From Hoeflea sp. IMCC20628 (GTDB lineage: Bacteria > Pseudomonadota > Alphaproteobacteria > Rhizobiales > Rhizobiaceae): a stretch of 64,000 bases of DNA. The notes under the pieces were generated by a model, which saw nothing but the letters and a program-made list of their open reading frames with translations, was not told the DNA's origin and made no database searches. Shown here one piece after another: positions 48,578 to 51,128 of the stretch. Location: assembly GCF_001011155.1 (NCBI RefSeq), contig NZ_CP011479.1, positions 4,475,662-4,539,661 on the forward strand, in the 5' to 3' direction. The position numbers were made by a program, and so were the translations under genes. Within the stretch, counting starts at the first letter, position 1, and each line of letters starts with the position of its first letter.

Positions 48578-49078
48578 GGCGGCATGACCGCGGACAAAAA
48601 GGATGGGAAACCAGATGAAAATTGTGATGGCCATCATCAAGCCGTTCAAGCTGGACGAGGTGCGCGAAGCACTCACGGCTATCGGCATTCAGGGGCTGAC
48701 CGTCAGCGAAGTCAAAGGCTACGGCAGGCAGAAGGGGCATACGGAAATCTATCGCGGCACCGAATACGCCGTGAGTTTCTTACCAAAATTGAAGATCGAG
48801 ATCGGGGTCGCCTCGGATGCGGTCGACAAGACGGTCGAAGCGATCGCGACGTCGGCCAAGACCGGCCAGATCGGCGACGGCAAGATCTTTGTTTACTCGA
48901 TTGACCAGGCCATGCGCATTCGCACCGGCGAAACCGACGCCGACGCGTTGTAAGGCAACAGGAGACACACTCATGACACTTCAGATGTCACATAAATCCC
49001 CGCTTCGGCTGGGTCTGATGGCAGCGGGCGCACTGGCGGCTTTCGCCGTTCCGGCCTTCGCCCAGGAAGCAACAGAAG
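48578..49078 (+). repeat. Direct repeat unit, copy 1 (covers glnK1 and the amtB1 signal peptide)
   Basis: Matches 50628-51128 at an exact 2050-bp offset. In the first 417 bp (48578-48994) there are only three differences, all silent changes in glnK. The last about 84 bp drift to nine differences in the amtB signal-peptide region, after which similarity falls. Confidence 0.92.
48615..48953 (+). CDS. glnK: P-II nitrogen regulatory protein GlnK, copy 1
   Basis: A 112-residue P-II signal protein that senses 2-oxoglutarate, ATP/ADP and glutamine-linked uridylylation and blocks AmtB. Tyr51 in [10 protein letters not shown] is the uridylylation site; the T-loop and the C-terminal [16 protein letters not shown] motif are present. 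The protein is identical to copy 2. ATG 48615 ([11 protein letters not shown]) is preferred to ATG 48603. It is followed 19 bp later by amtB1. Confidence 0.97.
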
Positions 49079-50322
49079 CCGCTGCAGCAGCACCCGAATT
49101 CGCAACCGCCGCGGAAACGGCGTTCATCTTCAACACGCTGCTGTTCCTCATTGGCGGCTTCCTCGTCATGTGGATGGCGGCAGGCTTTGCCATGCTCGAA
49201 GCCGGCCTGGTTCGCTCCAAGAACGTCTCGATGCAGTGCCTCAAGAACATTGCGCTCTACTCGATTGCGGGCCTGATGTTCTGGGTCATCGGCTATTCAC
49301 TGATGTACACCAACGTCAATGGCGGCTTTTTCGGCACGCCAATGCCTTACAGCTGGCCTGATGCCGGCGCCGCCAACGAGGGCGACTATTCCGTTGCCTC
49401 GGACTGGTTCTTCCAGATGGTGTTCTGCGCCACAACAGCGTCGATCGTTTCGGGCACACTGGCCGAACGCATCAAGCTTTGGCCTTTCCTGATTTTCACT
49501 GCGATCCTGACCGGTGTGCTCTATCCGATCACCGGTTCCTGGCAGTGGGGCGCAGGCTGGCTCAGTGAAGCAGGCTTCTCCGACTTCGCCGGTTCGACGC
49601 TGGTTCACTCGGTCGGTGGCTGGGCAGCTCTCGCAGGCGCCATCATCCTCGGTGCACGTCGGGGCAAATATGGTGCGGACGGCAAGGTCAACGCGATGCC
49701 TGGTTCATCGATGGCTCTGGCGACGCTCGGTACCTTCATCCTGTGGCTCGGCTGGTTTGGCTTCAACGGCGCTTCGCAGTTGGCGCTGGGTTCGAATGGC
49801 GATGCATCCGACATCAGCCGGATCTTTGCCAACACCAATCTCGCAGCCTGCGGCGGCGTGGTTGCGGCGATGATCCTCACCCAGATCATGTACAAGAAGG
49901 TCGACGTTACCATGGCGCTCAACGGCGCACTGGCCGGCCTGGTCTCGATCACTGCTGAACCGCTGATGCCTTCGCCACTGACGGCGATCGTCATTGGCGC
50001 CATCGGCGGTGTGATCGTGGTGTTTGCCGTGCCAATGCTCGACAAGTTCAAGATCGACGATGTGGTTGGTGCCATTCCGGTTCACCTTCTGGCCGGTATC
50101 TGGGGCACGCTGATCGTGCCGTTCTCCAACCCTGACATGTCCTACGGGACGCAGATCCTGGGTATTGTTTCGATCGGCGCCTTCACATTCGTGCTGTCGG
50201 GCGTGGTCTGGTTCATCCTCAAGTCGACCATCGGCATCCGTGCCACGGAAGAACAGGAAATGATGGGTATGGACATGGCGGAAGTCGGTGTCGAAGCCTA
50301 TCCGGAATTCACCAAGGCTTAA
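48973..50322 (+). CDS. amtB: Ammonium transporter Amt, copy 1 (Amt1-like)
   Basis: A 449-residue ammonium channel with signal peptide (MTLQMSHKSPLRLGLMAAGA…, cut near AQEATE) and 11 membrane segments. It carries LEAGLVRSKN, AERIKLWPF, the pore histidine region TLVHSVGGWAAL, and IPVHLLAGIWGT for the second pore histidine. This subfamily resembles cyanobacterial/plant Amt1, and differs strongly from copy 2 after the signal peptide. Ends with a C-terminal tail containing GMDMAEVGVEAYPEF, the GlnK docking region. A palindrome GGATGGATATCCATCC lies at 50345-50360. Confidence 0.93.
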   Translation: MTLQMSHKSPLRLGLMAAGALAAFAVPAFAQEATEAAAAAPEFATAAETAFIFNTLLFLIGGFLVMWMAAGFAMLEAGLVRSKNVSMQCLKNIALYSIAGLMFWVIGYSLMYTNVNGGFFGTPMPYSWPDAGAANEGDYSVASDWFFQMVFCATTASIVSGTLAERIKLWPFLIFTAILTGVLYPITGSWQWGAGWLSEAGFSDFAGSTLVHSVGGWAALAGAIILGARRGKYGADGKVNAMPGSSMALATLGTFILWLGWFGFNGASQLALGSNGDASDISRIFANTNLAACGGVVAAMILTQIMYKKVDVTMALNGALAGLVSITAEPLMPSPLTAIVIGAIGGVIVVFAVPMLDKFKIDDVVGAIPVHLLAGIWGTLIVPFSNPDMSYGTQILGIVSIGAFTFVLSGVVWFILKSTIGIRATEEQEMMGMDMAEVGVEAYPEFTKA

Positions 50323-50367
50323 GTGCCTTGTAAAAATCCCGTCGGGATGGATATCCATCCTTGCCTT

Positions 50368-50394
50368 GGGGCCCGGTTTTCCGGGCCCCTTTTT
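50368..50394 (+). terminator. Rho-independent terminator after amtB1
   Basis: Arms GGGGCCCGG (50368-50376) and CCGGGCCCC (50381-50389) with TTTT loop, followed by TTTTT. It separates the two glnK-amtB units transcriptionally. Confidence 0.92.
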
Positions 50395-50561
50395 CTTGTG
50401 CGAGCCGCGCTTCTGAACGCGGACTGCCATTGGCGTGAAAATCAGCAGTGATCAAAAAGACGCCAGTTGCTGCGGTGAAACTGCACAAAATACCGCCACT
50501 TTGCTTCTGATGCGGGCTTGCTGCCCGCTGTTTTGGCTGAATTTGTGCGGCAAGACCGAAC

Positions 50562-50577
50562 TGGCACGGCTTTTGAT
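50562..50577 (+). promoter_or_regulatory. Sigma-54-type promoter of glnK2-amtB2
   Basis: TGGCACG-N4-TTGAT, close to the consensus, about 88 bp upstream of the glnK2 ATG, nearly the same distance as at copy 1. A different leader hairpin CCGGCA/TGCCGG lies at 50600-50619. Confidence 0.65.
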
Positions 50578-50627
50578 AGAGGATTGTCAGGTGGGTGGTC
50601 CGGCATGTCGGATTGCCGGTTGGTACA

Positions 50628-51128
50628 GGCGGCATGACCGCGGACAAAAAGGATGGGAAACCAGATGAAAATTGTGATGGCCATCATCAAGCCGTTCAAG
50701 CTGGACGAGGTGCGCGAAGCACTCACGGCTATAGGCATTCAGGGGCTGACCGTCAGCGAAGTCAAAGGCTACGGCAGGCAGAAGGGACATACGGAAATCT
50801 ATCGCGGTACCGAATACGCCGTGAGTTTCTTACCAAAATTGAAGATCGAGATCGGGGTCGCCTCGGATGCGGTCGACAAGACGGTCGAAGCGATCGCGAC
50901 GTCGGCCAAGACCGGCCAGATCGGCGACGGCAAGATCTTTGTTTACTCGATTGACCAGGCCATGCGCATTCGCACCGGCGAAACCGACGCCGACGCGTTG
51001 TAAGGCAACAGGAGACACACTCATGACACTTCAGATGTCACATACCTCCCCGCTCCGGCTGGGTCTGATGGCAGCGGGCGCACTGGCCGCCTTCGCCGTT
51101 CCCGCGGTCGCGCAGGAAGCAACAGAAG
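50628..51128 (+). repeat. Direct repeat unit, copy 2 (covers glnK2 and the amtB2 signal peptide)
   Basis: Second member of the repeat described for copy 1. The identical tract includes the ribosome-binding region, all of glnK, the intergenic spacer and the start of amtB. Confidence 0.92.
50665..51003 (+). CDS. glnK: P-II nitrogen regulatory protein GlnK, copy 2
   Basis: 112 residues, identical in protein sequence to copy 1; three silent base differences only. Same Tyr51 and T-loop. ATG 50665. It precedes amtB2 by 19 bp, so two GlnK pools should be indistinguishable as proteins. Confidence 0.97.

Follow-up and report, generated by a model that had tools for sequence, protein, structure and literature searches.

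In Escherichia coli, glnK and amtB form one operon, a single unit, and in the complex of the two proteins the T-loop of GlnK plugs the Amt pore. A glnK-amtB operon with a sigma54-type promoter is switched on under nitrogen limitation. The two copies of tuf, by comparison, lie far apart on the chromosome. Gene conversion between tufA and tufB has been described in Salmonella, tuf being the classic bacterial case (PMC5485169). Haloferax mediterranei has two glnK-amt pairs, glnK1-amtB1 and glnK2-amtB2, which are reported to be 84% alike in glnK and 52% alike in Amt amino-acid sequence, and its AmtB1 bound both GlnK forms (PMC3831643). In the Methanococcales, glnB (P-II) is counted among 26 genes with recurrent concerted evolution and is named among the genes whose proteins form homopolymers, with relief from paralogue interference discussed as one possible reason for concerted evolution (PMC6053082; Wang and Chen, 2018). 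The available portion of PMC5520373 cites tuf conversion and P-II duplicates and mentions no conversion of glnK, and our literature search, confined to titles and abstract openings and to the terms used, returned nothing on glnK gene conversion beside amtB in bacteria.

In the window (the whole 64,000-nucleotide stretch of DNA that we analysed, from genome G000), two glnK-amt units follow one another between tesB and ftsK (Table 1). An initial annotation, made from the letters alone, had proposed that the units share a near-identical 417-bp tract at a 2050-bp offset, and the alignment agreed, with 414 of 417 bases identical at that offset. The three mismatches (48683, 48737 and 48758) all lie inside glnK and are all silent (dS 0.04, no amino-acid changes), which leaves the two GlnK proteins identical, as the annotation had also said. 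To the right, similarity continues through a shoulder in which 75 of 84 bases match, up to 49078/51128 at the end of the signal-peptide region, beyond which it drops to background; to the left, the edge falls between 48577 and 48578, ~50 bases downstream of the sigma54-like promoter. The further claim of similar Amt signal peptides ahead of unlike channels also held: 30 of 32 signal-peptide residues were identical, versus 123 of 387 aligned core residues, and the two channels belonged to different profiles (TIGR03644 and TIGR00836).

Table 1. Features of the two-unit locus, in window coordinates. The span under study, 48578–51128, opens with the first tract copy and closes with the signal-peptide region of the second; unit 2 itself ends at 52372.
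Feature	Position	Strand	Remarks
tesB, conserved left neighbour	47507..48385	+	profile match and relatives' layout
sigma54-like promoter, unit 1	48510..48525	+	TGGCACG-N4-TTGAA, outside the tract
homogenised tract, copy 1	48578..48994	+	leader, ribosome-binding region, glnK1, spacer, first codons of amt1
glnK1, P-II nitrogen regulator	48615..48953	+	112 aa; PF00543 105.9 bits, cut-off 25
amt1, ammonium transporter	48973..50322	+	TIGR03644 'marine subtype', 630 bits, cut-off 514
right-hand shoulder, amt1	48995..49078	+	remaining signal-peptide region; 9 mismatches in 84 versus copy 2
sigma54-like promoter, unit 2	50562..50577	+	TGGCACG-N4-TTGAT, outside the tract
homogenised tract, copy 2	50628..51044	+	leader, glnK2, spacer, first codons of amtB
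glnK2	50665..51003	+	112 aa; protein identical to that of glnK1
amtB, classical AmtB-type ammonium transporter	51023..52372	+	TIGR00836 431.8 bits, cut-off 343.3
right-hand shoulder, amtB	51045..51128	+	signal-peptide region
ftsK, conserved right neighbour	52543..55188	+	profile match and relatives' layout

Against TIGR03644, AmtB scored 180 bits, below the cut-off of 514. It also fell below the E. coli-type AmtB model PRK10666 (482.8 bits, cut-off 657), and 'AmtB' is used here in a broad sense; its best structure match was 2nuu_A, 'Ammonia channel'. The window's GlnK scored below the E. coli GlnK model PRK10665 (166, cut-off 181), and the E. coli GlnK-AmtB complex structures 2nuu and 2ns1 were among the matches of the window proteins. 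Arg47 and Tyr51 of GlnK1, which we take to be T-loop residues, are both present in the translation, and alternative glnK starts exist at the ATG codons at 48603 and 50653. The G000 genome contains four P-II matches, and its only Amt genes are the amt1 and amtB of this locus. A weak P-II relative (60 bits) lies at G000:C1:1167452-1167736 and recurs, away from amt, in nine others of the 18 genus genomes. The motif TGGCAC-N5-TTG occurs three times in the window, and two of these occurrences are the unit promoters, both of which sit in otherwise unlike sequence. We checked 25 glnK genes across the genus, and 24 of them have the motif 101–106 bases upstream, the sole exception being a foreign-looking glnK on contig L159, to which we return below. 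The presence of a sigma54-like promoter for each unit suggests that both would be switched on under nitrogen limitation.

Our family sample comprised 394 genomes taken from a larger group, 112 of them with a match above the TIGR03644 cut-off; the 114 stretches that we compared were the over-cut-off matches listed for other genomes plus two below the cut-off. The layout tesB-glnK-amt1-...-ftsK recurred in the family, and the order tesB-glnK-amt1-glnK-amtB-ftsK was found in 9 of the 18 genomes of the window's genus (G000, G394, G342, G258, G403, G046, G402, G395 and G400; the two units of G400 are on two contigs, and the amtB of G402 is cut by a contig end). Three genus genomes had amt1 only (G139, G303 and G374), two had amtB only (G203 and G396), and contig ends hide the layout in G397, G398, G399 and G401. 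In all eight two-unit genomes with complete genes, the Amt1 and AmtB cores shared 116–125 of 387 residues. Between species of the genus, dS was 0.24–0.86 for amt1 cores, 0.27–1.16 for amtB cores (a range that takes in G258, G396 and L159), 0.24–1.16 for ftsK (G403 ftsK being left out of the distances and of the ftsK tree) and 0.07–0.67 for glnK1. In G403 (L160), an apparent frameshift splits tesB and another splits ftsK, perhaps from sequencing indels; the tesB distances of G403, computed from the first piece and perhaps inflated, enter none of the figures given here. The amtB genes of the seven two-unit genomes with a whole amtB other than G258 formed one genus clade, and the upstream regions of unit 2 that we compared were like each other and unlike those of unit 1. 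With amt1 and amtB orthologous (except the amtB of G258) and the unit order shared by half of the genus genomes, the duplication is older than the species split.

Among the best 80 of at least 80 Amt1 relatives in named genomes, none had two glnK genes near amt1, and 69 had one. None of these 80 seems to belong to the window's genus, because they are at most 80% like amt1 in their best segments, versus 85–98% within the genus. Eleven two-glnK loci of other genera contained no homogenised pair (dS 0.52–3.13). In four loci of genus code g58 (L067, L098, L101 and L129), the units stand in the reversed order tesB-glnK-amtB-glnK-amt1-ftsK, from which tandem arrays may have had more than one origin. 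A third, well separated Amt clade (31–35% to amt1) is found downstream of amt1 in 15 family loci (L043, L044, L049, L078, L085, L089 and nine more); a glnK lies between amt1 and the third-clade Amt only in L079, and in L045 that gene is ~3.8 kb away.

Within genomes, the two glnK genes differed by 0 bases in G342 and in G258 (dS 0 for both), by 1 in G394 (dS 0.01), by 3 in G000 (0.04), by 19 in G403 (0.24), by 36 in G402 (0.42), by 38 in G046 (0.42), by 42 in G395 (0.48) and by 41 in G400 (0.55), and the glnK genes of the first four species, which we call homogenised, were 21 to 39 bases from each other. When silent differences within each pair were compared with those to the nearest glnK1 of another species, paralogues were clearly closer than orthologues in four of the nine two-unit genomes (Fisher P = 9e-5 for G000, 1.5e-4 for G394, 1e-6 for G342 and 1e-7 for G258); in the other five, silent differences were not significantly fewer than to the nearest glnK1. 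Set against the amt1 cores, at a dS of 0.24–0.86 between species, the four glnK pairs at 0–0.04 bear out the initial annotation's proposal of an old duplication followed by repeated conversion, as do the shared two-unit order, the old Amt cores and the private near-identical glnK pairs.

In the glnK tree, of which many deeper branches are weak and the eight outgroup rows are split rather than on one side, the pairs of G000, G394 and G403 were sisters at 96–100% bootstrap and those of G342 and G258 were identical. With these two identical pairs left free, AU tests rejected monophyly both of all glnK1 genes (p = 2.8e-6) and of all glnK2 genes (p = 2.4e-4). In G046, G402 and G400, orthology is kept, as their glnK2 genes grouped together (91/90). 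A Sawyer-type run test on silent sites only reached significance in the four homogenised genomes (P = 0.0001 to 0.01) but not in any of the remaining five two-unit genomes (G403, P = 0.15). We set aside the all-site version of this test, which gave P below 0.001 in eight of nine genomes, unconverted ones included, because the far divergence of amt1 and amtB (the fast Amt part) confounds it. Signal peptides were identical at 30–32 of 32 residues in the four converted genomes and at 14–27 in the other five. The sister pair of G403 (96/97) had no significant excess (P = 0.27) at its dS of 0.24; its glnK genes agree over their first 95 bases and differ patchily beyond, which points to a conversion that was either older or partial.

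Because near-identical pairs are private to four species and others are unconverted, the sequences indicate at least four separate events in the genus. Homogenisation is recurrent and lineage-specific, neither universal nor steady, because G046, G400 and G402 keep orthology and the G395 pair stands at a dS of 0.48. The homogenisation described in the initial annotation thus stands for G000, G394, G342 and G258 and does not extend to G046, G400, G402 and G395; orthologues closer than paralogues, the pattern that it had set against its own reading, is absent in the first four and present in G046, G400 and G402.

The edges of the tract vary among genomes, with a sharp drop in similarity outside. 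In G394, a stretch that begins 75 bases ahead of glnK and reaches 122 bases past the stop codon shows a single difference between the copies. In G258, the likeness extends through the signal peptide, the 140 bases that start at the stop codon containing one mismatch; in G342 and G000, mismatches start earlier, in the spacer or signal peptide. The G258 pair differs by 26–27 bases from the glnK1 genes of G046, G402 and G400 and by 39–44 from their glnK2 genes, and in the tree it falls inside the glnK1 group of these sister species, not with their glnK2. The leaders of G394 and G000 are, by eye, of the unit-1 kind. This grouping and these leaders read as copying from glnK1 to glnK2 in three of the four events (G258, G394 and G000), the direction in G342 being unreadable. 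G398_1 may be an exception to this direction, since this glnK stands beside tesB yet has a weak affinity (80/74) to glnK2 genes in the tree. At two of the three differing sites, the glnK2 of G000 carries a base absent from the other 23 sequences compared, and its silent differences are presumably mutations that followed the last conversion.

In relatives of the window, one unit seems variously to have been deleted, to have decayed or to have been replaced. The ftsK tree (a quick build with long branches among other genera) places G203 as the sister of G000 (SH-aLRT 98). G203 has a single glnK-amtB unit, and its tesB-glnK spacer of 229 bases is equal in length to that of G000 unit 1. Its place in the ftsK tree makes it probable that a crossing-over between two glnK genes deleted a unit in G203, rather than that the single unit is ancestral. 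In G303 (L040), short decayed amtB pieces lie between amt1 and ftsK, and this genome therefore once had both units. The amtB core of G258 (L039, about 7964–9325) grouped with G396 and other genera (99/95), and its placement in the genus clade was rejected (AU p = 2e-4, L159 left out); the glnK2, signal peptide and flanks around this core are native in type. This combination suggests that the channel core was swapped and glnK kept, with a foreign amtB core now behind a converted glnK2. Contig L159 (G402:C3) carries within 1–2200 a glnK 65% like the window's and the N-terminal part of an unlike AmtB, followed by a genus-type amtB and ftsK, and seems to be a chimeric assembly that joins two organisms inside amtB. 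We dropped L159 from the AmtB AU test and kept it in the Amt trees and dS tables, and its ftsK in the ftsK tree.

An old tandem with recurrent gene conversion between the glnK repeats is, very probably, the best explanation of these patterns. Unequal crossing-over between sister chromosomes at the glnK repeats, passing through three units and then contracting, could have homogenised glnK and left much the same sequences, and its reciprocal deletion product seems to exist in the single unit of G203 with its 229-base spacer. However, the nine two-unit genomes contained no native three-unit locus (G402 does have a third Amt match, but it sits on the odd contig L159), and in those that are converted the promoter of unit 2 and its amtB are still in place, one on each side; we therefore consider this route unlikely and infer conversion as the process. 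If a whole glnK-amt unit had been duplicated recently in each species and its channel had then diverged fast or been replaced, the foreign amtB core of G258 would be accommodated, but the single genus clade of the seven other amtB genes, the orthologue distances of amt1 in an unchanged order and the mutually alike unit-2 upstream regions, distinct from unit 1, all oppose this scenario. Orthologous flanks refute it outright for G000, G394 and G342, and as a general account it is highly improbable.

Strong purifying selection might instead have kept both GlnK proteins alike without recombination, as a near-invariant T-loop in the less alike pairs and a dN/dS of about 0.08–0.12 in four diverged pairs would allow. 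Silent-site identity refutes such selection as the sole cause, and the four converted genomes extend the likeness to the near leader and to most of the signal-peptide DNA; a demand for an identical sensor would not by itself explain any of this, which makes the account scarcely credible. An assembler that wrote one glnK copy twice must also be weighed, as the initial annotation had recognised, because genus drafts do break here: in G399 one contig breaks off 61 bases into glnK and another begins 19 bases short of the end of the gene, G398 breaks at the right edge of the tract, and G397 and G401 both stop about 30 bases ahead of glnK, with G401 resuming in the last 65 bases of the gene (both 'about 30' values assume a 229-base spacer). 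Such breaks are, however, what a true long repeat produces, and G000 is in 3 contigs, its two copies differing at three sites and lying in distinct flanks. The picture is the same in four separate genomes, three other species having the same layout with a near-identical glnK pair of their own, and an assembly error is very improbable. Collapse of a near-identical repeat could have sharpened the zero difference in the drafts G258 and G342. Because long identical repeats break assemblies, G397, G398, G399 and G401, with their breaks in or beside glnK, may be homogenised too.

On the gene-conversion reading, two glnK-amt operons have long stood in tandem at the locus; the first encodes an Amt1-type channel and the second an AmtB-type one, both operons have a sigma54-like promoter of their own, and their glnK genes form direct repeats 2 kb apart. 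Homologous recombination between these repeats, presumably of the RecA type, would repeatedly copy one glnK onto the other, mostly glnK1 onto glnK2, together with part of the leader and the adjoining Amt signal peptide, and copying would halt with the loss of homology, short of the promoter to the left and within the channel core to the right. Under nitrogen limitation, both operons would then yield the same GlnK, which, judging from what is known of the family, could presumably gate either of the two channels.

In the five less alike pairs, the only difference within T-loop residues 37–55 is T49A, in G046 and G400, and on that account conversion would not be required for each copy to act on both channels. 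The initial annotation had offered one sensor for two different channels as a possible selective reason for the homogenisation, an idea that stays conjectural. Diverged pairs with 8–12 amino-acid differences persist in four genus genomes, and because the near-invariant T-loop would let either copy serve both channels, GlnK identity is apparently not needed throughout the genus. A further idea, which we regard as doubtful, is that glnK, leader and signal peptide might act as a recombination handle that keeps one sensor and admits unlike Amt cores, as the foreign amtB core of G258 behind its native, converted glnK2 would suggest, with conversions kept by selection against mixed P-II trimers (paralogue interference).

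The window and E. coli share the same gene pair and the same protein families; E. coli has one unit, and the window adds a second with an Amt1-type channel. As in H. mediterranei, there are two glnK-amt pairs in which glnK is more alike than Amt, but that system is archaeal, its glnK copies have diverged, and its authors, in the text available, suggest a rather recent duplication (PMC3831643). As with tufA and tufB, two near-identical copies are held alike by what appears to be conversion, which has been measured for tuf (PMC5485169), whereas in the window it is read from the sequence. The nearest parallel in P-II is the glnB of Methanococcales, in which paralogues were likewise homogenised repeatedly within species after an old duplication (PMC6053082). 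That case, unlike ours, concerns five species of Archaea, and the bacterial table of the same paper, in its accessible part, contains no P-II gene; here, moreover, the tract comprises glnK, leader and the neighbour's signal peptide, and the neighbours belong to different subfamilies. With one direct repeat, 2 kb apart, and nine species that are converted, perhaps half-converted or unconverted, the locus is a compact natural experiment. It lets one ask whether P-II identity comes from selection against mixed trimers or from mere closeness, the same question that the Methanococcales case leaves standing. The process itself is known gene conversion, of which the window provides a clear bacterial case, with partial tracts and unlike neighbours.
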